64,000 bases of DNA from Asterias amurensis (Eukaryota > Echinodermata > Asteroidea > Forcipulatida > Asteriidae): positions 21,139,962 through 21,203,961 of the forward strand of contig NC_092660.1 in the NCBI RefSeq assembly GCF_032118995.1. Direction: 5' to 3'. Of this stretch, positions 7,401 to 42,229 are shown one piece after another. Every line of letters starts with the position of its first letter. The stretch's first letter is position 1. Below the pieces are notes generated by a model. The model was not told the DNA's origin and did no database searches. It saw only the letters and a list, made by a program, of their open reading frames with translations. Both the position numbers and the translations under genes were made by a program.

Positions 7401-8950
7401 GAGCTTTACTCAAACAGGCTGGGGCAGTGGCTTCAACAAAGGGACCAATTATAAGCACCTTTCTGCAGAGATCTTTAGAAATTGAGACACAACACTTTGA
7501 TTGCTCCCCTTTGTTATGGCTGCTCACTTCACGGACAAGCCCTAATCCGCTGTATACATTGTAACTAATCTATGTTGTTGCATTGCTTATTCAGACGTTA
7601 ATCCCCCTGGCAAGGGACTGGGGTTTTAATGAGCCCTTCGGCCAGAACATGACCTCTTTGGTGCTGGCATAATCATGATTTATGCAATCCTTTTGTAAGT
7701 GTTCACTGAGTTAAAAGCCGCCTGGATCCGGCGGTTTACGGCGGCAAATGGGGGTTAGTTAAAGACGGCCTCCCTAAAAGTCCTGGCAATTTCAGTCATC
7801 AATATCATTCTCAATTCTTTCGTTTAATCTCCAATCATCACTCAAGGCCATGGTTTCTCATTTTTATAGCGTTTTAATGCAACTTGCACTGGTTGGTGGC
7901 TATGTCGCAGAACCTCACACGTCCTCTCACTCTCAGCTTTCTAGATATAAAAAGGGGCAGGCAGTAAAAGAGAAAGCAAACTATGACTGAGGACAACAGA
8001 AAGACATCAACAGTCCTTTCTTAATAATGATTTAATAATAAAACAGTATTTATACATATAGCGCAATATGAATTTAAGCATTCCTCAAAGCGAAATGAAA
8101 AGCATTAATACGAAAACAAAATTTGTATTTTCCCCAAATAAAGCCCACAACAAATTCATATAAAATTAGGCCAGACCAGCTGTTGCCTAAATTAAACCAT
8201 TAAAAAACAATACAAACAACTTAAGGATCTGAAAAATTACTCTTTAAAGTAAAACTTAAAGGTATAAATAGCCAAAATGATTAAAATGCCTAAATGCTGA
8301 AAATTACATAGAAACTTTGTATACATCTCCTCACTCCTCTATGATCAATTTCTGAACACCTACTCACCCCCCCCCCCTCCACTTGCATCAGTATTGATAT
8401 TTTACTCAACTCCTTTGATACTATTTTCTTTCTAGTACAAATTATTTGTTTCTAAGATGAATACACGCCCGCACATATGCATGCATGTGACTTGCGTGTA
8501 GGACCAGTCAATGAGTGTAACTACAATATTTATTCTACTGCAAGTTTCATATTACCTTAGAAATATAACATCATTACGTTTTGTTTTGACCATTCTCTTT
8601 CTATGTCCATTCACATAAGGTGGCTAATGAGTGTGTTGGGTCACAGAGACAGCAAATGGTATATGATCAATGGAATCACCATGGTATTTGTATTCTTCTC
8701 GTGTCGCCTAGCAATCCTTCTACCCTACTACACTGTCGCATATCAGGCCATCGGGAGAGCCGTCGCTGCCCTCCCAACTGTGCTTATCGTGGCTTGGATT
8801 CCTTGTGGATTTATAATGGACATTCTTAATCTCTACTGGTTCCGCAAGATGTTCAACGGAGCAAAAAATATGTTACTTGCTGAGCAGACAAAAGACAACA
8901 GCGATGACAGTGTTCAGAAGCGAATGACAAACCGAGTGAAAGGAGAATAA
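1389..8950 (+). CDS. TLCD4: TLC-domain protein 4-like (TMEM56-like) gene, C-terminal part, four exons
   Basis: Spliced gene with coding exons 1389-1447, 1861-1955, 5725-5798 and 8620-8950. All introns are GT-AG and phases agree (1, 0, 2), giving about 185 C-terminal residues; vertebrate TLCD4 is about 260 aa, so some 80 N-terminal residues are missing. Family signatures in order are SGYMMADLIAMI, LHHIAVLYPF with the His pair conserved in TLC domains, and NIRILAECSTVFVNNRW, matching the [LAE.S.PFVNQRW] block of TLCD4/TMEM56. Two hydrophobic segments follow (about 30 residues around VFVFFSCRLAILLPYY, then TVLIVAWIPCGFIMDIL), ending in a charged tail. TLC proteins are multi-pass ER or plasma-membrane proteins linked to lipid handling; the exact activity of this one is unknown. 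Its introns carry several transposon relics. The family call is firm; the choice among TLCD4 paralogues is less so. Confidence 0.85.
1861..1955 (+). CDS. TLCD4: TLCD4-like exon with TLC His-His motif
   Basis: A pyrimidine-rich acceptor (TTTTTCCCCCCAG) precedes the exon and GTAAGT follows it. It starts with the last two bases of the Asp codon and encodes DLIAMIMWFPLRESWIYFLHH followed by IAVLYPFLNNV. The adjacent histidines sit where TLC proteins carry their conserved His pair. It ends in phase 0. Confidence 0.85.
2284..2914 (+). mobile_element. TTAA-bounded MITE, split by a LINE tail
   Basis: The left part, 2284-2553, begins TTAAAGGGAAGGTACACGTT and is close to the intact copy at 10649-11021. 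The match resumes at 2876-2914 (GAAGTGAAAAGACTGGTCTT, then the CCAAACG terminus). The segment between is a 5'-truncated LINE tail. The element has no coding capacity. Confidence 0.7.
2554..2875 (-). mobile_element. 5'-truncated LINE tail with (GAATG/ATTC) 3' microsatellite
   Basis: On the - strand the segment encodes a short KGPKLWNSL-type LINE C-terminus near 2660-2730. It ends in ATTC repeats (2553-2583 on the + strand), as CR1/L2-like elements do. It interrupts the MITE at 2284-2914, so it inserted after the MITE. The target-site duplication is unclear. Confidence 0.55.
2905..3720 (-). pseudogene. Decayed non-LTR retrotransposon RT C-terminal fragment
   Basis: Broken - strand reading frames resemble the region after the RT catalytic core of a Jockey/CR1-type LINE: WKVEFEPTKSQ, then MKLLGVTFSCKLEWKIHL, then a KMEYAP...LDKIQRRACRLI block and a FDRAFL...PKALK tail. 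Several frameshifts are needed, so it is dead. It directly adjoins the right part of the split MITE. Confidence 0.6.
3763..3830 (+). mobile_element. Possible tRNA-derived SINE relic (pol III B box)
   Basis: A perfect B box, GGTTCGAATCC, lies at 3781-3791 and is followed by a short arm CCATGTGGG. No convincing A box or cloverleaf can be formed upstream, so this is not a tRNA gene. It reads as a fragment of a tRNA-derived SINE. Confidence 0.35.
3935..5044. mobile_element. TTAA-bounded inverted-repeat element containing a LINE tail
   Basis: The left end is TTAAAGGAACGTTACAGAAT and the right end is its near-perfect inverse (ATTCTGTAATGTTCCTTTAA), about 24 bp of terminal inverted repeat with TTAA at both ends. 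The left interior (about 3960-4288) is MITE sequence. Most of the rest is a LINE fragment listed separately. No transposase is encoded. Confidence 0.65.
4289..5005 (-). pseudogene. CR1/Jockey-like LINE 3' fragment, frameshifted
   Basis: On the - strand, 5005 to ~4815 encodes a KNLGVTFDTAMTMSDHV block and RIRRFLDCDAC. A frameshift follows, then an open frame to 4289 with RLQRLQNRADRIVF, LLNSLHWLPIDKRIKFKTLL and YIYKALNDLSPVYLKDCI. These blocks are the familiar post-RT C-terminus of CR1/Jockey-type elements. It is 5'-truncated and nested inside the TTAA element at 3935-5044. Confidence 0.75.
5184..5325 (+). repeat. 27-bp tandem repeat, about five imperfect copies
   Basis: The motif CAGTTTGATATCTACACACT plus GAGCACA recurs with a 27-bp period and decays to the right. 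The period is a multiple of three, which explains the open frame across it. No function is apparent. Confidence 0.7.
5373..5698 (+). mobile_element. tRNA-derived SINE
   Basis: The head has a pol III A box (GTGGCCGAGTGGTCTAG, 5381-5397) and a B box-like GGTTTGATTCCC, in the order and approximate spacing of a tRNA-Leu/Ser-type promoter. A tRNA-unrelated body follows, including TGCCCTTAAGCGAGGCACTT, a motif I associate with several metazoan SINE bodies. It ends near an AACAATAACACA tail. The cloverleaf is degraded, so it is not a functional tRNA. Confidence 0.7.
5725..5798 (+). CDS. TLCD4: TLCD4-like exon encoding the AE.S..FVN.R block
   Basis: The acceptor CCTGCAG precedes it and the donor GTGAGT follows. 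It encodes VFGVLTYFTNIRILAECSTV and FVNNR, the last Arg codon being split AG|G with exon 8620-8950. This is the most diagnostic block for TLCD4/TMEM56 against other TLC proteins. Confidence 0.85.
6297..6612. mobile_element. Foldback MITE with two TGACGTCA sites
   Basis: About 100 bp at each end are inverted copies: TGACGTCAATCGAGGCAGAC near 6324 against the inverse ending at 6585, continuing into the GTAAACACA/TGTGTTTAC arms. Each arm carries a perfect palindromic TGACGTCA (6324-6331, 6578-6585). The outer ends differ (GGCTGACTTCGCCTACCCCA against CAGCGCCCTCTCGGGTCGGG). A second copy is at 26520-27060. Confidence 0.7.
7268..7774. mobile_element. PIF/Harbinger-like MITE with ~45-bp TIRs and TAA duplication
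   Basis: The left end GGGAGGCCGTCTAACTAACC has its inverse at the right end. TIR similarity continues through GCCGCCGTAAACC to a GGATCC on each side. TAA flanks both ends (7265-7267, 7775-7777). Three-base TWA duplications and G-rich TIR starts are typical of PIF/Harbinger elements. The ~400-bp interior encodes no transposase. Confidence 0.7.
8620..8950 (+). CDS. TLCD4: TLCD4-like terminal exon
   Basis: The acceptor ACATAAG lies at 8613-8619. The exon continues in frame from FVNNR with WLMSVLGHRDSKWYMINGIT, two hydrophobic helices and a polar, acidic-basic tail ending KRMTNRVKGE, with TAA at 8948-8950. It gives the last two membrane segments and the cytosolic tail expected for TLCD4. Confidence 0.88.
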
Positions 8951-9057
8951 CTTCAATCGTGAGACATTGTTTCTTCTGATTTTGTAATGAATGATAATTG
9001 TTGGTATTTCACGTGAAAGTGATGATGCTTTTTTAAATGTTTGAAGTGCTCGAAAGT

Positions 9058-10370
9058 GCCGAGCGCTGTGATTGGTTAAGCATAACTGTGTAAAGCTATG
9101 GTTGGTAAACTTCACTTCGGAGCGCTGTGTTTGGTGTAGCTTCACTGCAGGGCGCTGTTATTGGTGAAGCTTCACTGCAGACCGTTGTGATTGGTGAAGC
9201 TTCACTGCAGACTGCTGTGTTTGGTGAAGCTTCACTGCATGCAGGGCACTGTGATTGGTGTAGCTTCAATGCAGACCGCTGTGATTGGTGAAGCTTACCT
9301 GCAGAGCGCTGTGATTGGTGAAGCTTCACTGCAGAGTGCTGTGATTGGTGAAGCTTCACTGCAGAGCACTGTAATTGGTTTAGCTTCCCTGCAGGACGCT
9401 TCTATTGGTAAAGCTTCACTGCAGACCGCTGTGATTGGTTGAGCTTCACTGCATGCAGAGTGCTGTGATTGGTGAAGCTTCACTGCAGACTGTGTGATTG
9501 GTGAAGCTTCACTGCAGACCGCTGTGATTGGTGAAGCTTCACTGCATGCAGGGCACTGTGATTGGTGAAGCTTCACTGCAGACCGCTGTGATTGGTGAAG
9601 CTTCACTGCAGACCGCTGTGATTGTTGAAGCTTCACTGCATGCAAATTGCTGTGATTGGTGAAGCTTCACTGCAGACCGCTGTGATTGGTGAAGCTTCAC
9701 TGCATGCAGAGCGCTGTGATTGGTGAAGCTTCACTGCAGACCGCTGTGATTGGTGAAGCTTAACTGCATGCAGAGCGCTGTGATTGGTGAAGCTTCACTG
9801 CAGAGCGCTGTGATGTGTGAAGCCTCACTGCAGACCGCTGTGATTGGTGACGCTTCACTGCAAAGCACTGTGATTGGTGAAGCTTCACTGCAGAGCACTG
9901 TGATTCATGAAGCTTCACTGCAGAGCGCTGTGATTGGTGAAGCTTCACTGCAGAGCATTCTGATTGGTGAAGTTTCACTGCAGAGCGCTCTGATTGGTGG
10001 AGCGCTGTGATTGGTGAGGCCATACTGCAGAGCGTTGCGATTGGTGAGGTAATACTGCGGAGCGCTGTGATTGGTGAGGCCACACTGCGGAGCGCTGCGA
10101 TTGGTGAGGCCATTCTGCGGAGAGTTGCGATTGGTGAGGTAATACTGCGGAGAATTGCGATTGGTGAGGTATTACTGCGGATCGCTATGATTGGTGTAGC
10201 TTCACTGCGGAGGGCTGTGATTAGTGAGGCCATTCTGCGGAGAGCTTTGATTGGTGAGGCCATTCTGCGGAGCGCAGTGATTTTTGAGGCCATACTGCGG
10301 AGAGTTGCGATTGGTGAGGCCATTTTGTGGAGCGGTGTGATTGGTGAGGCCATACTGCGGAGCCATTGTG
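9058..10370. repeat. 30-bp minisatellite, ~42 copies, with ATTGG in nearly every unit
   Basis: The unit is 30 bp (for example GCGCTGTGATTGGTGAAGCT plus TCACTGCAGA), with occasional 34-bp units carrying an extra TGCA. A distinct subfamily (GAGGCCATACTGCGGAGCGC) begins at about 10007. Most units contain ATTGG, the reverse of a CCAAT box; many also have AAGCTT and CTGCAG. The array starts about 110 bp after the TLCD4-like stop codon, so it may lie in the 3' UTR or just downstream. A period divisible by three creates long spurious open frames on both strands. Confidence 0.92.
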
Positions 10371-14430: not shown

Positions 14431-15202
14431 GCTTCTTTCTTTCTTGTGGTTATATCAGTTCAAACTAGGAAACTATCACGAGATGGTTTAGTGAATTAAC
14501 AGGAAACATTGCGTTGTGCCTTTCCTAAACCAACCTTCTTTCTTTCTTGTAGTCAGGTAGTTATATCAAGTCAAACTAGGAAACTATCACCAGGTGGATT
14601 AGTGAATTAACAGGAAACATTGCGTTGTGCCTTTCCTAAACCAACCTTCTTTCTTTCTTGTAGTCAGGTAGTTATATCAAGTCAAACTAGGAAACTATCA
14701 CCAGGTGGATTAGTGAATTAACAGGAAACATTGCGTTGTGCCTTTCCTAAACCAACCTTCTTTCTTTCTTGTAGTCAGGTAGTTATATCAAGTCAAACTA
14801 GGAAACTATCACCAGGTGGATTAGTGAATTAACAGGAAACATTGCGTTGTGCCTTTCCTAAACCAACCTTCTTTCTTTCTTGTAGTCAGGTAGTTATATC
14901 AAGTCAAACTAGGAAACTATCACCAGGTGGATTAGTGAATTAACAGGAAACATTGCGTTGTGCCTTTCCTAAACCAACCTTCTTTCTTTCTTGTAGTCAG
15001 GTAGTTATATCAAGTCAAACTAGGAAACTATCGCCAGGTGGATTAGTGAATTAACAGGAAACATTGCGTTGTGCCTTTCCTAAACCAACCTTCTTTCTTT
15101 CTTGTAGTCGGGTAGTTATATCAAGTCAAGCTAGGAAACTATCACCAGGTGGATTAGTGAATTAACAGGAAACATTGCGTTGTGCCTTTCCTAAACCAAC
15201 CT
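14431..15202 (+). repeat. 111-bp tandem repeat, seven copies
   Basis: Copies start at about 14431, 14530, 14641, 14752, 14863, 14974 and 15085 (the first is truncated) and are almost identical. Each carries TTCTTTCTTTCTTGTAG, a pyrimidine tract ending in AG that resembles a strong + strand 3' splice site. Homogeneity suggests recent expansion. Confidence 0.9.
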
Positions 15203-16038: not shown

Positions 16039-16161
16039 TTAGAGTTTACGTTTACCACCTGTTGCTGATGAATGTTGGCTAAGCTTTCTCTTTAAGTCAT
16101 TGACAGTTTGTTTTAGATGAGCAACTTCTCTTTCTGAAGCTGCCTGGGCATTCAACATTTT
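16039..16161 (-). CDS. CCDC152: CCDC152-like exon 9 (terminal)
   Basis: The acceptor CCATTTCAG reads into KMLNAQAASEREVAHLKQTV followed by NDLKRKLS and a basic tail GGKRKL; the TAA stop is at 16039-16041. It starts in phase 0. Confidence 0.85.
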   Translation of the reverse strand, partial: KMLNAQAASEREVAHLKQTVNDLKRKLSQHSSATGGKRKL

Positions 16162-19100
16162 CTGAAATGGAGAGAAATAAAATAGAGATCAAAATCAAGA
16201 AATTCAGATCTGGTTATTGGTGTAACTTGATGAAGTTCCATCACTTATTTAGAACCGTTTGTAAAAAGAAAAAAAAAAAAAGAGTTAGTCATAGGATTTC
16301 CTTCAGATATAAAAAAAACTAAAACTGTTTGCTACATGTATGACATGAATCTGAACATTGCCTCCAATGACGTGAATGATGCCACTCCCTTATGTAATGG
16401 AGGGGGCATGGAGTGGGCAAAAGCTGCTGTGTAAAACCTTTGTTTATGTCACTGATTAGCCGGAGTGCCTGCTCCCCAAACATAACATTACAATTTAATA
16501 ATAAAAAAAATTTAAGAAAATGTTCTGCAGGTCCCCATAGTAAAAAAAAAAAAAAATTTGAGCCAAGATGTAGTAAACTATTGCACTAGAAAAAGACAGA
16601 GTAACAATTTCTCACCTCTCTGAAGATATGACTGCCGACAGAAGCCGGTTTTTCATTTCGTTGGATAGTTCTTGTGTTAGCACTCTGTAGTTTTAACAGT
16701 TTGGCATCGTACTGTAAAACAAATAAAACAAAAACAAAACGAGACTCTTAAAGGCAGTAGACACTATTGGTAATTGTCAAAGACTAGCCTTCACAGTTGG
16801 TGTATCTCAACATATGCATAAAATAACAAACCGGTGAAAATTTGAGCTAAATCGGTCATCGAAGTTGCGAGCTAATAATGAAAGAAAAAAAACCTTTTCA
16901 CGCGAAGTTGTGTGCGTTTAGATGGTTGATTTCGAGACCTCCAGTTTTAAATCTGAGGTCTCGAAATCAAGTTCGTGGAAACCTATTTCTTTCTTGAAAA
17001 ATATGGCACTTCAGAGGGAACCGTTTCTCACAATGTTTTATACCATCAACCTTTCCCCATTACTCATCACCAAGAAAGGTTTTATGCCAATAGTTATTTT
17101 GAGTAATTACGGGGAGTGTCCACTGACTTTATAAGAGTTGTAAAGAACCAGAGTGTAACATTTATTACCTAAAATTAAACCATTTCCTTTATACCTCCAA
17201 TCTCAACTTGACAATCCCAGTCTGGTGACCCTTCTCAGCTTCAGCAATTTGCTTCTTAAGTTGTTTATTCTCAGCTGACTTAACTCGAACTTCTTTCTCC
17301 ATAGCTGTGAGCTCTTTTGCCTCTGAGGAAATCAACAATTGAAAGAGTAAAGCACAACATTTATAATATGACTAACAACTTGTTTTTACCATTTCACCAA
17401 TGTGTATTATTTAAAGTACTCTATACTCTGTACTTTCCAAATTTCTGTGTAAAATATCCACTGGAAAATCACTCGGGCGGGATTTGGGTTGACACACAAA
17501 CTTTGCATGGCAAGAGGCAGTAAAAATCTTGAGGGTGTCATCCAACGGCCCATTAAACAAATTAACATCTACTAAGATGATATAGCTCTGTAAGGCATGA
17601 TGGGTAACTCTTTGATGTTTTTGAGGCAAAGGTTGTTGTCTTGATGGCTTTGTCTTACTCTAACTGTGTCTTTAAATCTTTCAGTTGTCATTTTATTTGT
17701 TTCAAGATGTTTTGAAGGTAACATGGAGATCTTTGAAAAATTTCATGAAATAAGAAGAAATCCTGAAAATTCACAGGACTTCATGTATTTTATTTTATTG
17801 ATAATGGGAAAGGTGGCAGGGGTCTAAAATTTGTTAACCGAATCAGTGCTGTAAATTGACAATTTAAATTAAGTGAATTGACTAAAATGGGCTACAGATT
17901 GTAAGAATTACGTAAATGATCTGACTTAGCATAATGGCCTGTTGATGAGTTTCCTCTATCTGGCATGTGTGTTCAGCGTGGACTTCTTCTAGTTGTCTCT
18001 CTACTGTAGTAATAGTTTCTTTACATTCCTATAAATATCACAAGTAGGTAACTCATTATACTTTGTATTTTATTCCGAAACTGGAACAGACCCCATAACC
18101 CTGCTGAGGGTTTCTGTATAATAATAAATTACAGTTTGTGAGGAAGTCGCACAGAAAGCTAGGAGTGTTAACTTTTAAACAAAAACATACATTTGTAATG
18201 CACCATTTACCACACAGTTTTATTTCTTTTTAAAATGGTAAATAAACAGAAATTTTGCAACACACCTTAAGCTTCATCACAATAGTTCAACAAACAAATT
18301 TATACCTATGTTTCCTGCCAAGATAATGATGGAACTACTTCAGTTCAGAGATTTAGCTTCTAAAAACTCATTTTACTTTTGGGAAATTCTAAATTTGCAC
18401 CAGGGAAAAAGAACATTGTGTTTTACCTTTCACTGATGTATCATTATACTGATAATGTGCTTTGCCAAATAGAGCAGATTATCAGTCACAAATTTGACAT
18501 TCGACATAGTTTTGCTGGTAACTTTACTCTGGTAGGCAATACACACTGTAGTTTTGTTGTGCTGAGCTTTTTTGTGCATCCCAACCATAACCCAGTTCAA
18601 CCTGGCAATGATGTTTCATATATCAAAGCAAAAGTCATAGAACACAAACATTATCGTGCTTTGCAACATAGAACAGAATACCAGTCAGAAATTGTATATG
18701 TGATTTGGTAATTTTGCTGGTAACTTAATCATGTTTATTCTGGTAGGCATGTAGTTTTGGCGTGCTGAGCTGTCTTCGTGTGTGGAACTGGGTCCAGTCA
18801 CCACTGCGCTTTTACCCTTATAAGAATCAGACAGTTGCATCGGTTGCATCAAGATTTATTTTGCTCATCTCTTCAGTAGAGCCTCGCTCTTCAACTAGCA
18901 ACTATCCCAAATATATTAATGGTAATTTTGGCTGACAACAGCTCGTCAACCCTTCCATGGCAAAACACTGAGCCTAACTTGATCAACAATGACATTAATT
19001 GAGAAAAGCAAATACAGAGAGAAGCTGTTTTGCCATAAAACGTGACTAGAGTATAAGAAGAGACCGATCGGTTGACCCATTTCACCTGAGGTCATCAGCA

Positions 19101-22100
19101 GAAAAATCTTGAATGCGCCATACTGGGCCCAATTTCATAGAGCTGCTTAAGCACAAAATTTTGCTTAAGCAAAAAAATCCTTGCTTAGTAAAATCAGATT
19201 ACCGACCAAGACTCCATTCAATTGTTATGCTAAGTAAACAACAGCTAAATACCAGTCACGAGCAATGTATATGGCATGAAATTTTGGCCAGTAACATGTG
19301 TAAAACAAGCGAGCTAATTTCGTGCTTAAGCAAATTTTGTGCTTAAGCAGCTCTATGAAATTGGCCCCTGGTGGGCAATTTCACTGTGCGTTTTTATATA
19401 TAACTCTATGCTGCGCGTCATGCAGTAAAGTGTGCATTTTAGGCGACGCGGCGTTAATACACGTAAACCTAACTGCCAACGAGCGTGGCATTGTTCGCTG
19501 TGTGTGATGCGCGTGCAAGGGATCAATAGGCACTTTATTTTAGTATTTACATCAAAGTATGCCTTTGAAACTTTGAAATTGGAAACAAAAATCCCCTCAA
19601 TTAACCCAAAATAATGTTGTGACATTTTAAGTTAGGTCTGTTTTGCCATGATTGTAACTAGCGGGATGCCGCGCGGCTAGATGAGGAGGATTCTAGTATA
19701 CAAATGCTGTAAAAGGTAATGTGGGGGCAAGGGAGGTATTCTTACAGGTAATAATCATTTCGTAGGATTGGATACGAAATTGTATTTATGATCGGTATGG
19801 AAATTTGTCATTAATGTTGTATTTTGACAAAAATTAATTGTTGAGCGTGCACAACCCAGTTGTGAAACGTCGCGACGCGTCGCCTCCTCTCCTCACCTTC
19901 TCTCTTGCGTTCCCCAACTTAAGGAATTGGTGTTTGTTGCTGGAATTGAGCTTTAATATTGGGGATGGGTATACTTGGCAATGATGGTACTTGGCATGAT
20001 ATGTAGGGTATTTCGTAATATTTTAGTGTTGATCGAGCGGGCCAACGGCTTATCCGTAATGTGGATTATGTTTCGCCTCTTTTACGCATAGTTTTAATTC
20101 ATTCGGCTTTTGTCATTGTGTCAATTTTATCCACTGCATTGAGTATTTCCCAGCTAAGATGTCTGATGTAAGGGTAATAATTCTTAGTCGAGTACAAATA
20201 TAGCACGTACACTGCTCCAATGACACACTTATTTTATTGTTTTGAGCACATTTGGTACAGTTACACTTGGCAAAATGTACATCCTGAGTCCCGCCCAAAC
20301 TGCTTTCAATATAGTTACGAACTTATGAAACATTTGCCTTGTTATTTTGAGGGTCTGTACATCCAGTTTTTATGGTGGCCCTGAAGGGACATCGCATATC
20401 GCAAACGTGTGCGCATACGTATGCAATGTCGTGAAACAATTCGCGAATATGTGCGCACACGTATGCAATGTCGTGAAACAATTCGCGAATATGTGCGCAC
20501 ACGTATGCAATGTCGTGAAACAAATCGCGAATATGTGCGCACACATATGCAATCTCGTGAACCAAATCGTGAATATGTGCGCACACGTATGCAATTTCGT
20601 GAACCAAATCGTGAATATGTGCGCACACGAATGCGATTTGTTTTGCAATGTCGTGAATTTTATTGCATACCATGTTGCATACCATTAAGATGATGTCATA
20701 GTTGTGGATAATTTGTTACCGATCTAGGGAGTACTGTGGCGCTACATCAAGCTCCCTCTGTAAAGCATGTGCGCCAAAATTGGTTCACCAACATGATCAA
20801 GCAGCAGGAAGTTGCAACTTTGATGGTACTCGTTGTGGCTGCATGTTTAATCGAGTTGTTGAATAACGGTAATCACGACTCGGCTAAGCATTCAAAAGTT
20901 GCGCCTTTACACATAGTCACACTAGTCGCCCAAGCTTAGTCACCCAAGCTTAGTCGCCCAAGCTTAGTCGCCCAACCTTAGTCGCCCAAGCTTAGTCGCC
21001 CAAGCTTAGTCGCCCAAGCTTAGTCGCCCAAGCTTAGTCGCCCAAGCTTAGTCGCCCAAGCTTAGTCGCCCAAGCTTAGTTGCCCAAGCTTAGTCATAAC
21101 CCTCTATTTGCTGTCTCTTCAGTGTAAGGAGATTTGACAGGGCAATACATATCTATGTACCTCTTTCACAGCATCAATGTCCTCTTTAATTCTCTGAATT
21201 GTTTCCTTGAGTTGCTTGTTCTCATCTGTCAAGAAAAAAAGAGATGATTGGTTCATCTTTCCTCACTAGTGACAAACTGGAGAAAGAAACAAATTTGGAA
21301 GGTCATTTTGGTGTTTTAAATCATTTTAGGTGGTGGTGCGAGGGCGGTCGGGGGGGGGGGGGGGATGGGGGGCAGAGGTCTGAGCATTTGTAACCACTTG
21401 CCCTACAACTACCCCCCCCCTCTAGTTATAACCATACAACATTACTACAGTCACTAGAACCACAAACAACTTCATTTCCGTATCAACAACAATTGCTATT
21501 TTTTCAGAACTTTTTTCTATTAAGTAAAAATAGTCTGGAAAAAACATATTTTTGTTTTTTTTGTGTTTGACAAAAAAATATCATCTAGAGATTGATTATT
21601 AAAAACAACTACACAAAACTCTTAGAAGTAAATACTGAACTTTTCTTGGTCACACTGTCCTGAAGGCAAGATATAATCTAAGAAGTAAATACTGACCTTC
21701 TAGATTGCATTTCTTAGTCACACTGTCCTGAAGGCCAGATATAATCTAAGAAGTAAATATACTGACCTTGTAGATTGCATTTCTTAGTCACACTGTCCTG
21801 AAGGCCAGATATAATCTAAGAAGTAAATACTGACCTTCTAGATTGCATTTCTTATTAGTCACACTGTCCTGAAGGCCAGATATAATCTAAGAAGTAAATA
21901 TACTGACCTTCTAGATTGCATTTCTTAGTCACACTGTCCTGAAGGCCAGATATAATCTAAGAAGTAAATATACTGACCTTCTAGATTGCATTTCTTATTA
22001 GTCACACTGTCCTGAAGGCCAGATATAATCTAAGAAGTAAATATACTGACCTTCTAGATTGCATTTCTTAGTCACACTGTCCTGAAGGCCAGATATAATC

Positions 22101-25100
22101 TAAGAAGTAAATATACTGACCTTCTAGATTGCATTTCTTATTAGTCACACTGTCCTGAAGGCCAGATATAATCTAAGAAGTAAATATACTGACCTTCTAG
22201 ATTGCATTTCTTAGTCACACTGTCCTGAAGGCCAGATATAATCTAAGAAGTAAATATACTGACCTTCTAGATTGCATTTCTTATTAGTCACACTGTCCTG
22301 AAGGCCAGATATAATCTAAGAAGTAAATATACTGACCTTCTAGATTGCATTTCTTAGTCACACTGTCCTGAAGGCCAGATATAATCTAAGAAGTAAATAT
22401 ACTGACCTTCTAGATTGCATTTCTTATTAGTCACACTGTCCTGAAGGCCAGATATAAACTAAGAAGTAAATATACTGACCTTCTAGATTGCATTTCTTAG
22501 TCACACTGTCCTGAAGGCCAGATATAATCTAAGAAGTAATTATACTGACCTTCTAGATTGCATTTCTTATTAGTCACACTGTCCTGAAAGCCAGATATAA
22601 TCTAAGAAGTAAATATACTGACCTTCTAGATTGCATTTCTTAGTCACACTGTCCTGAAGGCCAGATATAATCTAAGAAGTAAATATACTGACCTTCTAGA
22701 TTGCATTTCTTATTAGTCACACTGTCCTGAAGGCCAGATATAATCTAAGAAGTAAATACTGACCTTGTAGATTGCATTTCTTATTAGTCACACTGTCCTG
22801 AAGGCCAGATATAATCTAAGAAGTAAATATACTGACCTTCTAGATTGCATTTCTTATTAGTCACACTGTCCTGAAGGCCAGATATAATCTAAGAAGTAAA
22901 TATACTGACCTTCTAGATTGCATTTCTTAGTCACACTGTCCTGAAGGCCAGATATAATCTAAGAAGTAAATATACTGACCTTCTAGATTGCATTTCTTAT
23001 TAGTCACACTGTCCTGAAGGCCAGATATAATCTAAGAAGTAAATATACTGACCTTCTAGATTGCATTTCTTATTAGTCACACTGTCCTGAAGGCCAGATA
23101 TAATCTAAGAAGTAAATATACTGACCTTCTAGATTGCATTTCTTAGTCACACTGTCCTGAAGGCCAGATATAATCTAAGAAGTAAATATACTGACCTTCT
23201 AGATTACATTTCTTATTAGTCACACTGTCCTGAAGGCCAGATATAATCTAAGAAGTAAATATACTGACCTTCTGGATTGCATTTCTTAGTCACACTGTCC
23301 TGAAGGCCAGATATAATCTAAGAAGTAAATATACTGCTGACCTTCTAGATTGCATTTCTTATTAGTCACACTGTCCTGAAGGCCAGATATAATCTAAGAA
23401 GTAAATATACTGACCTTCTAGATTGCATTTCTTAGTCACACTGTCCTGAAGGCAAGATATAATCTCACGCAGCTGATTCAACTCTGAAAAATAACAACAT
23501 TTATAAATAAAGACATTTTATATACAAACTTGCTTTATTACTCTCCTGTTGTATTCACATTATTCCTCAATAAATTAGTATTGTAACCGTGAACAATGAA
23601 AAACAAAATAAATACATCACATAAACAACTGTTTACAATAAAACAAGAAACAAATTAAAAAAGTATACAAAGGCCTAAATGAAAATACATGCATAATTCC
23701 CATTTACTCCTTCATGAAGAGAAACAATTAGATAGATCGTATAATTAAAGTGCGCCTTCTGTCAGTGTAGTGTATGCAGACACTAAGTGATCCGTTTATA
23801 GAATAGGATGTCATTGTTTCATGCGAGATCTTGTTGTACGAGAGCTCTGTTGTTTTGCTTGTTTTAACCACGTGAATAGAACCCAAGTATTGACGACGTA
23901 AGAACACAATCAGTCAGTGCTGCTTCTCTTTATGTTGAATTGTATAGTCCCCAAAGCATCCTAATTGAAACATCACACATACTCTTCATGTAGTCAACTG
24001 GCAAGCAATTTCAGGTTTTAACATGGGAGGAAAAGGGAAGTAAAACTCGTTCAAAATGCAAGGCTCTGGTGGCTGGGTTCAAACTGGCTACCAAGGTAAA
24101 AGGCAGGAACAGAAACCACCGAGCCAACCCGACCTAATTCTAAAGGTTTTGCCAAGTGAGGACACCACACAAGTAGTGTCATGGGTGGGATTAAAACCCC
24201 CACTCTGATAACTCTGATGTTCATAGCACTGATACCACCTTGCTTCTACTCACCATCTTGTGAGCTGTATTCTCAAGTAGTGTCATGGGTGGGATTAAAA
24301 CCCCCACTCTGATAACTCTGATGTTCATAGCACTGAGACCACCTTGCTTCTACTCACCATCTTGTGAGCTGTATTCTCAAGTAGTGTTATGGGTGGGATT
24401 AAAACCCCCACTCTGGTAACTCTGATATTCATAGCACTGATACCACCTTGCTTCTACTCACCATCTTGTGAGCTGTATTCTCAAGTAGTGTCATGGGTGG
24501 GATTAAAACCCCCACTCTGATAACTCTGATGTTCATAGCACTGAGACCACCTTGCTTCTACTCACCATCTTGTGAGCTGTATTCTCAAGTAGTGTTATGG
24601 GTGGGATTAAAACCCCCACTCTGGTAAATCTGATGTTCATAGCACTGATACCACCTTGCTTCTACTCACCATCTTGTGAGCTGTATTCTCAAGTAGTGTC
24701 ATGTGTGGGATTAAAAACCCCACTCTTGTAACTCTGATGTTCATAGCACTGATGATACCACCTTGCTTCTACTAACCATCTTGTGAGCTGTATTCTCAAG
24801 TAGTGTCATTGGTGGGATTAAAACCCCCACTCTGATAACTCTGATGTTCATAGCACTGATACTACCTTGCTTCTACTCACCATCTTGTGAGCTGTATTCT
24901 CAAGTAGTGTCATGTGTGGGATTAAAAACCCCACTCATGTTCATAGCACTAATAATACCACCTTGCTTCTACTCACCATCTTGTGAGCTGTATTCTCAAG
25001 TAATGTCATGGTGGGATTAAAAAAAACCACTCTGATAACTCTGATGTTCATAGCACTGATACCACCTTGCTTCTACTCGCCATCTTGTGAGCTGTATTCT

Positions 25101-27900
25101 CAAGTAGTGTCATGTGTGGGATTAAAACCCCCACTCTGATAACTCTGATGTTCATAGCACTGATACCACCTTGCTTCTACTCACCATTTTGTGAGCTGTA
25201 TTCTCAAGTAATGTCATGGTAGGATTAAAAAAAACCTATCTGATAACTCTGATGTTCATAGCACTAATGATACCACCTTGCTTCTACGCACCATCTTGTG
25301 AGCTGTATTCTCAAGTAGTGTCATGGGTGGGATTAAAACCCCCACTCTGGTAACTCTGATGTTCATAGCACTGAAACCACCTTGCTTCTACTCACCATCT
25401 TGTGAGCTGTATTCTCAAGTAGTGTCATGGGGGGATTGATAAACTCAATTTACAGGTGTTTTTTGCACTGAAACCACCTTGCTTCTACTCACCATCTTAT
25501 GAGGGGTATTCTGAAGTATCATATGGGTGGGATTGATAAACTCAACTTATTTCTTGCACTGATACCGCCTTGCCTACTACTCACCACCTTTGAGTTAATC
25601 TCAAGTAGTGTCATGGGTGGTCTGGCATGATAATAAACTCAACCTACTGGCGTTTCTTGCACTGAAACCACCTTAGCCTACTACTCACCAACTTGTGAGG
25701 TATTCTCCGTCTTCTTATCCAGCTTAGCTTGGCTGGTCAGAGTCAAAATCTCCTCTCTCAATGTATTGTTTTGGAGAACTAAATCCTGATGTTTCTGAAA
25801 TGATAGTATTTTGAAATAAATTAATCCTCTCATCGAATTATACATTTTAAATAATATAATTAATAATCTTTTCAAAAAATATAATCTTTAATTCTAAAAA
25901 GAGGTTTGTATGCCCATGGCAACCCCACTATTACCAATACTCACCCTTAATATCGATATTGCATTTCTAAAGGCTTCCTATTCGGGATATGGGTCGCAGA
26001 ATGTTTTTTTAACTTTTGTTTAATTGTACTTCTAAGTTCTTTCTTGCTGTAAAAAATGAAAATCACACTTCAATTCATTTTAACAACAGTCAACATTAAT
26101 ATTTTATAAACTGGATAAACCTGTAGGTTTTGTTCACAGAAAACCATTGTGAAACATGGTCAGTTGAGTAACTAACTTATATTTATAACATTTTAACAAT
26201 ATTATTTGAGTTACTTATACTATAGGGTATTAGTACGAGATGTCCTCACTGCATGATGTGGGCGCTTACTATCACGATTCCCCTCTTACATGTAAGCGCC
26301 GAATTTCTGCGCTAGCCTTGGAAGCCTAGAATGCCTAGTAACTGGAAGTATGCACGCGCATAAGCCAAAATTGCCGCTAACCCATGAAATACGCTTGCCG
26401 TAAGCACAGAATTCCCTGCTTCCGTAAGCGCCGATTGTACAGTAACCAGAGCCATTAAGTTGGGCACAGGTGTATTGCGGCTGGATCCATTAAGTTATTC
26501 CATGTTATTTACAAATTTGAAAATAAGCCCGACCCGAGAGTGCGCTGTTCGTGACGTCAATCAAGGGGGGATGAATCGCATGCAGTGCCAACCCAAGATA
26601 GCGACGCTTGGCGCAAGTTAAAAACATGCCCTCAAAGTTGAAACAATTTTGTTTACGTTAGGCAAATGCTCCTTTAGGTTTGTTACCTCTTTCAGGTACC
26701 TTCTTCGACTTCCCCACTAGCTTGAAAAATTGTTGGGATGGCGTCATGTTTCAGAAAAGAACTTTTCTCTTCATGTCAAAATGTGTAGTGTATGCCGGAT
26801 TCTCTAAACACGACGGCTAGAAGTGTTTGCTGCACAACGCTGGAAAAGGCTTTAGTTGTTTTGCTGCATCCAGCAGCAATTAATACACCTGGTCGTCATT
26901 GCCGGTAAAATGCATGAAAAAAACTTTTTTCGAAACGTACAAACTTAGGACTAGAACTTGATTGTATTTGCATTTGTGTGTTTGATGTTCGATCGAGGCA
27001 AAGTCTTTCTCGATTGACGTCACAAAAGGAGTAGGCGGAGTCACCCCCCACACAACTTTTTTTTTTTTTTTTTTTTTTTAACATATTAATCGTTAAAAAC
27101 AGTCCCTAAAAAAATAGTTTATTGTTCAGAAACACTCTAATGTTTGAAGAAAAACAATTCTATTTCCAGGTGACTTTAATTGTTTATTCATATTCCACTC
27201 ATCAAAACAAGCTTTATTTTGACAAAATACAACTTCCAGGTGACTTTTAGTATACGAGGTCACAAGGAGGGAATAAACTGCCAGGACCCCATACCCTGCG
27301 TAAGTTGTGTAATGTAAAGGCTGATTATGACATGACTAGAGACAATAGAGACAGTGTTTGAGTGGAAGTCACTTGAATGAAAGGAGAAGACACTAAGACA
27401 GGCCGTCAGTCTGTCAATGCTCTACAAGATACAGCACAACCAATGGCACCATCAATGCCTCCCATCATGTTCACCCGTTACCTGTCTCCAAATAACCAAT
27501 GATCCCTCCAACAACAGATCATAACCCTTGTAAACTCCTGACCACCAGTATCACATGATCACTATATATAATATAGCTGCACTCGGCTTTATGAAAGTTC
27601 CTTCAACAGTCAACTCTGGAACCTGTTCCCAGTTATGGTGTTGGCCGCCCCTACCTTATCAGAGGCCATCAGTTAGGGGAGGAGTTGCATCAATCAATGC
27701 AAGTCTATTAATTATTATTTATAGACTAGGCCTACCCGCACTTTTTAGGCTTTAGTTACTATATAACTTAATAAGCAGCAGCCCAGTTTTTACTTGCACT
27801 TTGTATTTGTCTCTTTACTTACCCCGTACCAAGTCGTGAAATCTTTGGAAAGCAAATTGAGGTCTACCTGCCTACTTAGTCTACGTGAACTTGTATCCAT
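16039..27900 (-). CDS. CCDC152: CCDC152-like coiled-coil protein, complete nine-exon gene
   Basis: Coding exons in transcript order are 27823-27900, 25945-25977, 25689-25794, 23415-23483, 21161-21225, 17926-18028, 17195-17322, 16616-16711 and 16039-16161, totalling 801 nt and 266 aa. All junctions are GT-AG and every phase agrees. The N-terminus MDTSSRRLSRQVDLNLLSKDF resembles the VNLDKLINDF start of vertebrate CCDC152. Near the C-terminus, KLRLEYDAKL, a SHIFREKM-type block and REVAHLKQTVNDLKRKLS align with KLQLEFDAKL, SIYRRKLQ and KEIAILRNTIRDLEQRLS of vertebrate CCDC152 (about 254 aa, recalled). The protein is almost entirely heptad-rich coiled coil without signal or membrane segments. Its molecular role is not established. 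Exon 2 (33 nt) is the weakest call. Introns 3 and 4 contain the exon-end minisatellites. Confidence 0.82.
16616..16711 (-). CDS. CCDC152: CCDC152-like exon 8
   Basis: The acceptor TTTTACAG and donor GTGAGA bound 96 nt encoding YDAKLLKLQSANTRTIQRNE followed by KPASVGSHIFRE, phase 0 at both ends. Confidence 0.85.
16748..17131. mobile_element. TTAA-bounded MITE (family 2), copy 2, in CCDC152 intron 7
   Basis: It matches the element at 11513-11896 almost base for base at both ends (TTAAAGGCAGTAGACACTAT; right end GTGTCCACTGACTTTATAA). It sits in the intron between exons 7 and 8, 36 bp from the exon 8 acceptor. Confidence 0.8.
17195..17322 (-). CDS. CCDC152: CCDC152-like exon 7
   Basis: The acceptor TTTCCTCAG and donor GTATAA bound 128 nt. 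It encodes AKELTAMEKEVRVKSAENKQ then LKKQIAEAEKGHQTGIVKLR and LE; the first two bases complete the Lys codon from exon 6. Confidence 0.85.
17926..18028 (-). CDS. CCDC152: CCDC152-like exon 6
   Basis: The acceptor ATATTTATAG and donor GTCAGA bound 103 nt. It encodes ECKETITTVERQLEEVHAEH then TCQIEETHQQAIML and one base of Lys. The coiled-coil heptads continue across both junctions. Confidence 0.8.
18461..18780 (+). repeat. Diverged direct duplication, ~115-bp units
   Basis: Two related segments start at GCTTTGCCAAATAGAGCAGA (18461) and GCTTTGCAACATAGAACAGA (18658). Both run through CTGGTAGGCA and end at GTGCTGAGCT. They are non-coding. Confidence 0.6.
19125..19368. mobile_element. MITE with ~45-bp TIRs (CCAATTTCATAGAGCTGC family)
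   Basis: The left end GGGCCCAATTTCATAGAGCT has its inverse at the right end (AGCTCTATGAAATTGGCCCC). Both arms continue through GCTTAAGCACAAAATTTTGC-like sequence. Diverged copies are visible at 40-75, 10630-10650, 29745-29900, 33100-33260 and 49450-49690. Confidence 0.75.
20402..20660. repeat. 42-bp tandem array rich in palindromes, six copies
   Basis: Each unit contains the self-complementary blocks ATACGTAT (or CGTATG), TTCGCGAA and TGTGCGCACA. The period is divisible by three, so nearly every frame on both strands is open. There is no sign of protein coding. Confidence 0.9.
20926..21094 (+). repeat. 14-bp minisatellite, ~12 copies
   Basis: The unit is AGTCGCCCAAGCTT, nearly perfect. A related GTCGCCCCC array is at 52894-53221. 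Confidence 0.95.
21161..21225 (-). CDS. CCDC152: CCDC152-like exon 5
   Basis: The acceptor TTCTTGACAG and donor GTACAT bound 65 nt encoding (D)ENKQLKETIQRIKEDIDAVK and E. It resembles the GENEQLK block of vertebrate CCDC152 and ends in phase 0. Confidence 0.85.
21350..21364 (+). repeat. Poly-G run with neighbouring G/C-rich tract
   Basis: Fifteen consecutive G bases, then ATGGGGGG, lie inside intron 4 between the exon 5 acceptor and the exon-end array. It is a potential G-quadruplex on the + strand. Confidence 0.85.
21631..23460 (-). repeat. CCDC152: Minisatellite of exon 4 end plus 5' splice site (~26 copies)
   Basis: On the - strand each 70- or 73-bp unit reads CTTCAGGACAGTGTGACTAA, GAAATGCAATCTAGAAG, then GTCAGTATATTTACTTCTTA. 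This is the last ~40 bases of exon 4, its splice donor GTCAGT and the start of intron 4. The exon 4 copy at the array's right end (23415 onward) is the only one joined to the true acceptor. Units with and without an extra TTA alternate almost regularly, implying amplification of a dimer. The array fills most of intron 4. Confidence 0.93.
23415..23483 (-). CDS. CCDC152: CCDC152-like exon 4
   Basis: The acceptor TATTTTTCAG and donor GTCAGT bound 69 nt. It completes a Glu codon and encodes LNQLREIISCLQDSVTKKCN then LE and one base of Asp. Its 3' half is the founder sequence of the adjoining minisatellite. Confidence 0.85.
24048..24140 (-). mobile_element. tRNA-derived SINE fragment
   Basis: On the - strand an A-box-like GGTTGGCTCGGTGGTTTC is followed ~35 nt later by CCAGTTTGAACCC, a B-box-like element. 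It lies within intron 3, beside the second exon-end array. The body beyond is not recognisable. Confidence 0.45.
24165..25640 (-). repeat. CCDC152: Minisatellite of exon 3 end plus 5' splice site (12-14 copies)
   Basis: The ~104-bp unit, read on the - strand, contains GAGAATACAGCTCACAAGATG, then GTGAGTAGAAGCAAGGTGG. Exon 3 itself ends GAGAATACCTCACAAGTTG|GTGAGTAGTAGGC. So each unit carries a copy of the exon 3 terminus and its donor, all downstream of the real exon inside intron 3. Twelve copies are well conserved; two next to exon 3 (about 25500 and 25590) are degenerate. Confidence 0.9.
25689..25794 (-). CDS. CCDC152: CCDC152-like exon 3
   Basis: The acceptor ATCATTTCAG and donor GTGAGT bound 106 nt encoding KHQDLVLQNNTLREEILTLT then SQAKLDKKTENTSQV and one base of Glu. 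Strong heptads are evident. Confidence 0.85.
25945..25977 (-). CDS. CCDC152: CCDC152-like exon 2 (33-nt micro-exon, tentative)
   Basis: The acceptor CCCGAATAG is purine-rich and weak; the donor GTGAGT is strong. It encodes EAFRNAISILR in phase 0 and fits between exon 1 and KHQDLVLQ of exon 3 with coiled-coil character. Reading further upstream meets a stop in this frame, so a longer exon is excluded. Confidence 0.55.
26520..27060. mobile_element. CRE-bearing foldback MITE, second copy, in CCDC152 intron 1
   Basis: It is bounded by CCCGACCCGAGAGTGCGCTG and AGGCGGAGTCACCCCCCACA and contains TGACGTCA at 26552-26559 and 27015-27022. It is longer and more decayed than 6297-6612 and lies in the opposite orientation relative to the shared downstream block (27180-27250). 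A poly-T run follows at 27058-27079. Confidence 0.65.
27081..27822 (-). other. CCDC152: Rest of CCDC152-like intron 1
   Basis: 27180-27250 repeats the block at 6668-6755 (TTCCACTCATCAAAACA, then AGCTTTATTTTGA). The remainder has no recognisable feature; the 66-codon frame at 27555 is not supported. Confidence 0.45.
27823..27900 (-). CDS. CCDC152: CCDC152-like exon 1 with start codon
   Basis: The ATG is at 27898-27900 (context GTAGTCATGG, a G at +4). It encodes 26 residues beginning MDTSSRRLSRQVDLNLLSKD and ends in phase 0 at GTAAGT. The in-frame TTTTGA just upstream supports this start. Confidence 0.8.
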
Positions 27901-38026: not shown

Positions 38027-38319
38027 TAAGCTTGTTCCTTTTCCTTTTAAAAGACCGAGTCCCAATTATAAAAGACTCTGTGGAGCCGATCCTGGGACAA
38101 ACCAGCTCTAGAAATTGGGGCTTGATGTTGAAAGCGGTGACCGCAGATACAGTGTGCAAAAGGCTTCAAGCCGACATAGACCGGCAGCCCAGAGCACTTT
38201 GGTTAAACGAACGAGGTACCAATATTTGAGTACATGAACATTTAGTGGATAACCTGACATAGTCAAATATGGATGTCTGCCGGGGACCCCCCCCCCCCCC
38301 CCCCCGCTGCGTGTAGCGC
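38027..38319. other. Presumed 5' region of the non-LTR retrotransposon
   Basis: There is no clear repeat, except a poly-C run of about 18 bases near 38287-38304, 15 bases before the first retrotransposon ORF. The element's 5' border cannot be placed. Confidence 0.35.
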
Positions 38320-39342
38320 ATGGACCCCCAACAAAGAGGCAAAATAATGGGCTGGTTCAAACATTCTAGATACCACATGAAACCAAGTGAAAATGGTCAT
38401 CACCATCATGCTTTTAGTATGGCGCCGTTCAATGGCGACACGTTCTCTCGAGCTCTGATGATTTTGTTGTTTTTATGTGTTTTATTGGGTGCAATATCTG
38501 CTGTTTCACTCAAATATAGCAGAGATGAGCTGTTATTCCTTCGGTCCAACGTTGGTGAAGCTACAACCAGTGTTGATTTGACAGAAATAGAGACATTTTG
38601 CCAGCCGATTGAGGACAACAACTCTGTTCAACATGTTGGCCAGCCACGGTACACAAAGCACCATAGACGGAAGAGAGGTAGGAGAGGCGGACTGCTGGTC
38701 AAGCTACGCAATCGCAAGGGTAAAACTCCAGTACCTAGCATCATTGTATTCAATGTCCAGAGACTTTACAACAAAATGGATGAATTGATCTACCGTATTA
38801 ACAACCAGAATGACTATAAAAATTGTTGTGTATTTTGTTTCTCAGAAACATGGCTTAAACTTTCACATCCTGACTCTATTTTGCAACCCTCTGGATTTAC
38901 CATTTATAGACAAGATCGTGACCCTGTTATTACAAAGAAGGGGAAAGGTGGAGGAGTATGCTTTTTAATCAACAATAAATGGTGCACAGACATTAGGATT
39001 ATATCTAGTGGTTGCTACACTGATGTGGAATATTTGGCAATCAAGTGTAGACCCTTTTATCTACCAAGGGAGTTTTCATCAGTTACGCTAACATCAGTGT
39101 ACATTCACCCTAAAGCGGACACCGATGTTGCTTTGAACACTCTCTCTGATGTTATTTCAAGCTACGAGAACGCAGACCCAGAAACCCTAACAATTGTTGC
39201 AGGTGATTTTAACAGGGCAAACTTGAAATCCGTTGCGCCTAATTACCGGCAATTTGTGACATGCCCCACCCGAGGTTCTGCCACCCTGGACCATTGTTAC
39301 TGCCCAGTGAAAGGTGCCTTACAAGTCAATACCTCGTGCTAG
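38320..39342 (+). pseudogene. Non-LTR retrotransposon apurinic-like endonuclease ORF
   Basis: 340 codons. The N-terminus has a hydrophobic stretch (LMILLFLCVLLGAISAV, residues ~46-62) and a basic patch (HHRRKRGRRGG). The endonuclease domain follows with FNVQRLYNKMDEL (catalytic Asn region), FSETWLK (Glu), GGGVCFLINNKWC, LTSVYIHP, VAGDFNR (Asp/Asn) and LDHCY. The final SDH motif lies in the next frame (GNSDHSVV in the 39314 ORF), so a one-base insertion near 39313 breaks the original protein. The function would have been target nicking for target-primed reverse transcription. Confidence 0.85.
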
Positions 39343-40694
39343 CCTCGGTAACTCTGATCACTCAGTGGTGTTTCTCATTCCAGCCTACAAGCAAGAACTT
39401 AAACAAAGCAAACCTACAAAGAAGACGGTGAGGATATGGTCTACTGCGTCAGTTGATCAGTTACGCGGTAGTTTTGAATGTACCACATGGGACGGCTTTA
39501 GTCAAGGCACGGGCCTTGATGAGTATGTTGAAACAACTATTGATTATATCAACTTCTGTGTGGATTCGTGTGTTCAAACCAAAGTTCTGACACAATATCC
39601 TAACAATAAACCTTGGTTCAATAAGAAAATTAGAAGAAAGCTTCTTGCCAAGGATGAGGCCTACCGGTTAAAAGACGTCAACCCTGAAGAATTCCGCTTA
39701 GCCAAATCATCTCTAAAAAAAGGTATTAGAGATGCTAAACGATCTTTCAAAATCAAACTTGAGGATAGATTTGACACTAACAATCCTAGAGAACTATGGG
39801 GTAACATCAATCTAATTACCCAGTATAAGGGCCCTGTCAAAACAACGAGTACAGATGACGCAACACTTCCTTCTCAACTGAACAACTTTTATAGTCGCTT
39901 TGACAACGCAAATGCCACCGCACCAGCAACTGTTCCGGAGAACGATAACGAGGCACCATTCACAATCAGCGCATCAGATGTCCAACGCAAGTTTTCTCGC
40001 CTCAATGAACATAAAGCGGCAGGCCCTGATGGAATTTTCCCCCGACTATTGAAATTCTGTTCTACTCAGCTGGCTGGTGTTTTCACTGACATTTTTAACT
40101 TATCTTTGCTGCAACGTAAAGTTCCTCTTTGTTTTAAACAATCTGTTATAATACCTGTTCCTAAGAAGAAGTCCATTTCGAACTTAAATGATTATAGGCC
40201 AGTGGCACTGACTTCAATCCCAAAGAAAATTTTTGAAGGTTTCGTTCTTCAATTTCTTAAATCAATTTTACCTCCTAATATGGATAGTCATCAATTTGCT
40301 TACAGAACTAATCGTAGTGTTGAGGATGCAATTTGTCTCCATGAAGTTTTGCGCCATCTTGAGCAATCTATGTCTTATGCTAGAATTCTTTTTATTGATT
40401 ATAGTTCTGCTTTTAACACAATTGTACCATGTAAATTGCATTTTAAACTTATCAATGACCTCGAGCTCCCTGTTTCAATTTCTAATTGGATTCTAGACTT
40501 TTTATTGGAACGTCGTCAGGTTGTAAGAATTGGTAGTTGCACTTCACATTCTCTTGTGTTAAATACTGGTACTCCGCAAGGTTGTGTCCTGTCACCACTT
40601 TTATATTCATTGTATACTCATGATTGTAAAGCGACCAACCCCAATTCGCTTGTTGTTAAGTTTGCAGATGATACTAGTCTAATTGGTTTAATTC
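39314..40694 (+). pseudogene. Non-LTR retrotransposon reverse transcriptase, N-terminal and catalytic part
   Basis: It opens with the displaced end of the endonuclease (ASLGNSDHSVVFLIP). A connector rich in basic residues (KPWFNKKIRRKLLAKDEAYR) leads to the RT: AAGPDGIFPRLLK, VIIPVPKKKSISNLNDYRPV, the catalytic block FIDYSSAFNT with motif A Asp, GTPQGCVLSPLLYSLYTHDC and KFADDTSLIG with the motif C Asp pair. The frame runs into the DIRS element at 40695 and stops a few codons later. The region that should follow is at 45505-46151. Confidence 0.88.
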
Positions 40695-40757
40695 TAAAAT
40701 TAAACGAATAGAATGAAGTTTAATTGGAATTCTACTGAGTCTATCACCGACACTGAA

Positions 40758-41245: not shown

Positions 41246-42229
41246 CTACTTGGTTGTACCAGCCAAAACTGCGTTTGCAAAGCTGTGATCTGTTTGCCCT
41301 ACTGGTTTGTTATAAAATTTAGCAAAAGTACTACTTCTCGCCCAATGGCCAGTACTTAAAATAATGTTCAGTGGTACTCCATTCTTAAAAGCAGCACTGC
41401 ATGCAGCAGATCGAGTACTATGTGCTGTGAACTTGGCTGTGTCGATGCCAGCCTTATGCAACGTGTTCTTTATCCAGCGAGAGATTGTCTCTGACCTTAC
41501 TTGTTTGTGGGGTGATGCATAGCTTACAAACAAACACCGTTGTTTACCCCTTAGGGATTTCGTCTTAATTAAATACTGTTTTAGCGTCGTCATGACACAA
41601 AGTTGGTCATCATGAGGATACCTCGGTAACACCAAACTAACAGGCTGTTTGCCAATCTTGCTGGTTTTCGTCAACTTAGATACAACAAAGATAATTTTTG
41701 TAGCTGTAACTTCAGCGTCGTCTAAATTAAGTAGCGACAAAGTTTGACATCTTTGTCCTGAAATCAATGCAACAAGCATAACTAGCTTCATAGTGAGTTC
41801 TTTTAAGAACAACTTATTAGACGGACCCAAATTTGTTAAGTATTGTAACACAGTATTAACGTCCCATGTACAAGTATATCTGGGTATTGCAGGTCTCATG
41901 TTGAAGACACCTGTCATGAACCTTTTTATCAGGGGGAGAGACCCAATTGGTGTCCCATCTATAGGGGCTAGTATTGCTGACAATGCACTACGTAGTGTGT
42001 TCAGTGTGCTGTAACTACTACCCTTGTCAAATTCCTCTGTTAAGCAGTCTAGGATCACCGCTACAGTCGCTCGAAGTGGATCACTCTTTGTTCGAGCACA
42101 GAACAGAACCCATTTTTGGATCGCTGATCGGTAAGACTTCTTGGTTGAAGTCCGCCAGGATGAGATAATAATGTCGGCAGCGTGCTGCGAAATTCCCTGG
42201 CTCTGTAAGTTTTCCCTGACAAATGGCAT
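41246..42229 (-). CDS. DIRS tyrosine recombinase
   Basis: 327 codons. The N-terminal SAM-like half has SWRTSTKKSYRSAIQKWVLF. The catalytic half carries the R-H-R-Y set: Arg in ISGQRCQTLSLLNL, HSTRSAACSAAF (H..R), STGHWARSSTFAKFYNKPVG with His/Trp and the nucleophile Tyr. All catalytic residues are present. It would integrate the circular element DNA without duplicating the target. It overlaps the RT-RNase H ORF by 169 bp, as is common in DIRS elements. Confidence 0.93.
   Translation of the reverse strand: MPFVRENLQSQGISQHAADIIISSWRTSTKKSYRSAIQKWVLFCARTKSDPLRATVAVILDCLTEEFDKGSSYSTLNTLRSALSAILAPIDGTPIGSLPLIKRFMTGVFNMRPAIPRYTCTWDVNTVLQYLTNLGPSNKLFLKELTMKLVMLVALISGQRCQTLSLLNLDDAEVTATKIIFVVSKLTKTSKIGKQPVSLVLPRYPHDDQLCVMTTLKQYLIKTKSLRGKQRCLFVSYASPHKQVRSETISRWIKNTLHKAGIDTAKFTAHSTRSAACSAAFKNGVPLNIILSTGHWARSSTFAKFYNKPVGQTDHSFANAVLAGTTK

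Follow-up and report, generated by a model that had tools for sequence, protein, structure and literature searches.

Tandem duplications of exon-intron borders that resemble minisatellites, termed 'mirages', have been described in amphioxus globin genes, in Adh3 and at other loci (PMC3087553). Their units span 10-160 bp, and in BflGb6 the inner units are reported to be homogenised while the edges of the array are excluded from this process (PMC3087553). The authors of that work state that their data suggest undisturbed regular splicing, consider the use of cryptic sites possible and propose that introns could be gained from such repeats (PMC3087553). Troponin C (TnC) and PGBD5 have been added to the list, the latter being described as a single gene with repeats of 60 and 108 bp at 5' as well as 3' splice sites, for which the authors favour genuine repeats after considering assembly error or heterozygosity as alternatives (PMC3902484). 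In humans, the minisatellite of IFI6 (6-16) is reported to supply multiple splice donors, its units being used as such (Turri et al. 1995), and internal repeats at the exon-intron borders of duplicated genes have been linked to new introns and to alternative transcripts (PMC2812944). A tandem duplication across an exon-intron border is likewise reported to have resulted in intron gain in the potato RdRp gene (PMC4974935). An echinoderm case was absent among the titles listed for one literature query on echinoderm minisatellites and introns, which does not establish priority for the locus described here.

We analysed a window of 64,000 nucleotides of the starfish Asterias amurensis (NC_092660.1 of assembly GCF_032118995.1, positions 21,139,962-21,203,961, forward strand), which represents one haplotype. 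On its minus strand, the window contains a gene with a coding span of 16039-27900 that is divided into eight exons: 27900-27823, 25794-25689, 23483-23415, 21225-21161, 18028-17926, 17322-17195, 16711-16616 and 16161-16039. When these are joined using the authentic donors, an open frame of 768 nt is obtained and the predicted product of 255 aa shares 96% identity over 100% of the query with the CCDC152-like protein of A. rubens, which has the same length, confirming that the host gene is CCDC152-like as first proposed. The identity of the predicted product decreases to 52% with a Patiria miniata protein annotated as 'paramyosin-like' and to 33-34% with the CCDC152-like protein of the urchin Lytechinus pictus. 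A Pfam search with the protein listed seven families, none of them reaching its own cut-off, and an Rfam search found nothing at gathering thresholds.

The original prediction had numbered the exons preceding the two arrays 3 and 4, having counted a putative exon 2 at 26046-25946. All three reading frames of this stretch are interrupted by stops, and nothing is missing from the protein when the stretch is skipped, since the direct join of 27900-27823 to 25794-25689 yields a product that can be aligned with the A. rubens protein over its full length. The earlier exon and intron numbers are therefore one too high and the arrays sit in introns 2 and 3, respectively after exon 2 (25689-25794, minus strand, 106 nt, ending in TTG with the donor GTGAGT at 25688) and after exon 3 (23415-23483, minus strand, 69 nt, ending in AAG with the donor GTCAGT at 23414).

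The array of intron 3, hereafter array A, is composed of 26 units extending from 23464 to 21609 on the minus strand, in agreement with the approximately 26 copies of an exon end and its donor GTCAGT that had been announced. Unit 1 (23395-23464) is the authentic border itself, to which exon 3 contributes its final 50 nt and intron 3 its first 20, and units 2-26 (21609-23394) are 25 intronic copies, the last of them truncated; tandem repeats were detected there by TRF with periods of 73 and 143 and scores of 3250 and 3317. Units 1-25 measure 68-76 bp, mostly 70 or 73 bp, and combine about 20 intronic nt with an exonic part of 50 nt, which reaches 53 nt in the longer form. Because many units, often every second one, carry a 3-nt insertion, the 70- and 73-bp lengths partly alternate and generate a higher-order repeat of 143 bp. 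The donor-containing sequence AAGGTCAG is found in 25 of the 26 units including the authentic one, hence in 24 of the 25 intronic copies, the donor being lost from the truncated unit 26. Only one of 70 sites distinguishes the authentic unit from the array consensus and, judged by the mean pairwise identity of its 24 inner units (99.2%), array A is young. The LQ and C-x-L-E residues encoded by the end of exon 3 are unchanged in all four proteins of the alignment, namely those of the window, A. rubens, Patiria and Lytechinus. This identifies the exon end as ancestral coding sequence and indicates that exon 3 seeded array A and not the reverse. The capture of exon 3 from the array is accordingly ruled out by the conservation of this exon end in sea stars and urchin.

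A single site of array A departs from this simple picture. At unit base 11, which corresponds to codon 72 of the protein, the two terminal units (1 and 26) carry T in place of the G of the 24 inner units, so that exon 3 of the window and unit 26 read TGC (Cys) and all inner units between 23464 and 21609 read GGC (Gly). The A. rubens protein has Gly at this position, as encoded by the inner units. Such a pattern implies that the same base change occurred twice, or that exon and array exchanged sequence, or that an ancestral polymorphism was retained. The common terminal T and the truncation of unit 26 suggest that the edges of array A are the older copies. The units could also be regarded as an archive of exon 3, in which case the coding exon might be overwritten by gene conversion, arrays and parent exons exchanging sequence; we consider this improbable, and the T that is common to exon 3 and the far end of the array and absent in between is the part of the locus that could still surprise.

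Array B, located in intron 2, contains 15 donor-bearing units (one authentic and 14 intronic) mostly of about 104 bp, running on the minus strand from 25711 to about 24170. Its authentic unit (25608-25711) covers the last 23 nt of exon 2, of which about 19 are repeated, and 81 nt of intron 2, and the intronic copies (24170-25607), delimited by TRF (period 104, score 2114), by the unit list and by alignment, are made up of about 19 exonic nt, the donor and about 85 nt of intron. The exonic part matches the best copies at 18 of 19 nt, with a 2-nt insertion. That the unit resembles the exon end beyond chance was verified by aligning the last 22 nt of exon 2 to the array: a score of 14 was obtained, which none of 2000 shuffles reached and which compares to scores of 7-9 for the other seven exon ends, and BLAST of the border segment returned E-values down to 9e-16. 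The 12-14 copies of an exon end with the donor GTGAGT foreseen by the original prediction are thus present as 14 intronic copies, three of which have an altered hexamer (GTGCGT, GCGAGT and GTTAGT), one of these having GC in place of GT. Units 4-15 share a mean identity of 93.5%, and unit 15 at the far end equals the consensus; units 1-3 show clear divergence. Of the 94 sites that are ungapped in the multiple alignment, 27 distinguish the authentic unit from the consensus, from which it follows that array B is older or faster changing than array A. The capture of exon 2 from array B is ruled out less firmly than the equivalent event for exon 3. Exon ends and their donors are the seeds of both arrays.

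The starfish arrays belong to an already described kind, the border tandem repeats or 'mirages'. As in amphioxus, the unit spans a border of the host gene (50+20 nt in A, about 19+85 nt in B), the copies adjoin the authentic border and lie within the intron, and the border itself is intact, the 255-aa frame remaining open. Homogenised inner units with excluded edges are also shared with the amphioxus repeats, the exclusion being visible at both ends of array A and only at the exon-proximal edge of array B (units 1-3). The location at a 3' exon border is that of the BflGb9 mirage. The differences reside in the lineage, an echinoderm instead of a cephalochordate, in the number of copies, with 25 and 14 intronic copies here against 6 and 3 in the two haplotypes of BflGb6, and in the presence of two donor-side arrays in consecutive introns. 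We are confident that arrays A and B are two independently born exon-border minisatellites of this kind, by-products of duplication, in a gene that is most likely spliced at its authentic donors.

In order to account for both arrays, we infer that a short segment which by chance spanned the 3' end of an exon and the adjoining intron was duplicated in tandem, separately for A and B and from the different seeds given above. The first duplication joints would have involved microhomologies of 3 bp in A (AGA) and 1 bp in B (G), as read by eye by comparing the flanks to the unit joints, which fits duplication by slippage or by end joining. Being intronic, the duplicate would have spared the coding exon and its donor and would have been tolerated by selection. 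Slippage or unequal exchange would then have expanded the resulting two-copy repeat, chiefly in the middle of the array, the outer copies staying old or divergent. A duplicated segment that crosses the donor places its copies in the intron and in the same orientation. The common direction of the two arrays, emphasised in the original prediction, is therefore real, but it follows from tandem duplication and represents no additional coincidence.

The occurrence of two such arrays at consecutive donors had also raised the possibility of a shared mechanism linked to borders. Under such a mechanism, exon-intron junctions would be duplication hotspots, for example through their donor sequence, R-loops or pausing, and would provide a common cause for A and B. 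We evaluated the role of chance using 20 arrays hand-merged from TRF rows (score of at least 150, telomere excluded), which occupy 12576 of the 54568 non-telomeric bases (23%) and 3675 of the 11862 bases of the gene span (31%). When seeds were placed uniformly and wholly exonic placements were disallowed, a border was straddled by two or more of the four arrays of the gene in 0.4-1.0% of trials, according to how much overlap was demanded; both long-unit arrays did so in 0.3-0.6%, and at least two of the 20 arrays window-wide in 1.85%. Under uniform placement, it is thus uncommon for consecutive donors of one gene to carry an array each. These simple simulations (0.3-1.9% overall) and the border repeats reported in several lancelet genes (PMC3087553, PMC3902484) would be in line with hotspots; the low figures nevertheless carry no special mechanism because the coincidence came to notice, and was counted, retrospectively during a search for unusual features. 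Moreover, the two arrays differ in their exonic and intronic extents, in the microhomology of their joints and in age. The window is devoid of copies of six of the eight coding exons (1 and 4-8), only the intronic flank of exon 7 matching elsewhere, and the array units have no copies elsewhere at E 1e-3 in positions 1-54500 outside 21600-25720. Two further tandem arrays within the gene, both in intron 4 (20408-20634 and 20923-21095, of 42 and 14 bp), touch no exon. In a window with 20 arrays a common border-linked cause is not needed, and we regard it as very unlikely.

The original prediction further held that the transcript would carry dozens of extra donor sites, possibly selected as decoys. 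The sites are indeed present in the pre-mRNA by sequence, with 24 GTCAG donors contributed by array A and 14 donor-like sites by array B. The use of any of these 38 sites would introduce a premature stop, at aa 102 for all 24 in A and at aa 64 for all 14 in B; longer protein variants are therefore not predicted. A regulatory role would consist in the arrays competing with the authentic donor, the premature-stop transcripts lowering CCDC152-like expression as a function of array length. Scored with an approximate splice-site matrix, which serves only as a rough yardstick, 11 of the 14 B decoys reach 5.7-6.0 as compared to 4.32 for the authentic donor. Some use of the decoys is consequently conceivable, and the choice of the authentic donor in exon 2 would have to rest on its position and on exon size. 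The human IFI6 minisatellite, which similarly offers repeated donors, provides a precedent since its copies are reported to be used (Turri et al. 1995), whereas the starfish decoys are known by sequence and each would lead to an early stop. Three of the 14 B decoys are altered, and the amphioxus repeats of this kind are said by their authors not to disturb splicing (PMC3087553, PMC3902484), both of which argue against regulation.

Conservation within the arrays was counted on 24 units for A and 12 for B, the units A01, A26 and B01-B03 being left out. The donor columns showed no extra conservation relative to the remaining ones either in A (0/192 versus 7/1521 changed sites, Fisher p 1.0) or in B (3/108 versus 42/1129, Fisher p 0.79), albeit in comparisons of low power. 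The 20 columns to the left of the donor in B varied less than the intronic ones (1/240 versus 41/889 changed sites, Fisher p 0.0008). The contrast persisted without a length-variable G/T stretch (1/240 versus 18/649, p 0.03) and was not robust when, again without this stretch, each distinct change was counted once (p 0.16). No such contrast was seen between exon-derived and intronic columns in array A (6/1167 versus 1/354). The reduced variation of these B columns is a weak sign against a neutral reading and a point in favour of regulation. Neither the donor columns nor the 38 premature stops lend clear support to selection for decoy donors, and regulation by such decoys appears quite improbable to us as an explanation of the arrays. 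We infer instead that the arrays are neutral by-products and that splicing most likely takes place at the authentic, exon-proximal donor, because no other donor gives both an open frame and an exon of the usual length (69 or 106 nt). Occasional use of a decoy would produce a premature stop, and the transcript would be predicted to be removed by decay.

Border repeats could also represent an intron or an exon in the course of birth, single units of array A being recruitable as new exons by intron gain of the Rogers or mirage type. The layout of the A unit lends itself to this scheme, with TTTACTTCTTAG, a pyrimidine-containing tract ending in TAG, followed 49 nt on by the donor GTCAGT. The spacer between adjacent A units is only about 21 nt, which is too short for a normal animal intron, and read-through of the first A unit already leads to a stop in the frame of exon 3. 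Exon 4, which follows array A, matches only itself, and the start of exon 3, which follows array B, does not reproduce the B unit; no new intron flanked by duplicated exon sequence, as in Rogers-type gain, was found at these positions. Intron gain by tandem duplication is documented (PMC4974935), has been linked to border repeats in human genes (PMC2812944) and was proposed for the mirages themselves (PMC3087553). The starfish arrays share with the potato RdRp case a tandem duplication across an exon-intron border and differ from it in that no new intron is present, the exon after each array having its own acceptor and not being a unit copy (PMC4974935). Intron or exon birth in progress is in our judgement extremely unlikely here, and the interpretation of A and B as independent exon-border minisatellites is retained.

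The window ends with a telomere-like repeat, (AGGGTT)n, at 54569-64000, and arrays A and B lie 29-33 kb from its start in a stretch rich in tandem repeats. An array of 111-bp units with 98% matches occupies 14449-15202 in the 3' flank of the CCDC152-like gene; on the plus strand, its consensus unit contains a pyrimidine-rich tract that terminates in TAG and is followed 4 nt later by a GT. Upstream of it in window coordinates, a plus-strand frame at 8561-8950 encodes a TLC domain (PF03798, E 5.4e-09) and is followed by a 30-bp tandem array at 9057-10363. Retrotransposon frames were found at 38317-40711 on the plus strand, with a reverse transcriptase and an endonuclease-like match below the family cut-off, and at 41246-44256 on the minus strand, where a reverse transcriptase is accompanied by a recombinase of the phage integrase family, a pair that looks DIRS-like. 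Nearer to the telomere repeat, a similar 77-bp unit forms two arrays of opposite orientation about 3 kb apart (46872-47998 and 51037-52209). In human subtelomeres, a 21-fold enrichment of GC-rich VNTRs with long patterns has been reported (PMC7608644); the GC content of the two starfish border arrays being 35% and 42%, this is a loose parallel only.

The locus extends exon-border minisatellites from amphioxus to a starfish, with many more copies and with a pair of arrays in the same gene. It provides a natural setting in which to test how the spliceosome chooses one among about 25 near-identical donors, and arrays of this type may constitute raw material for intron gain.
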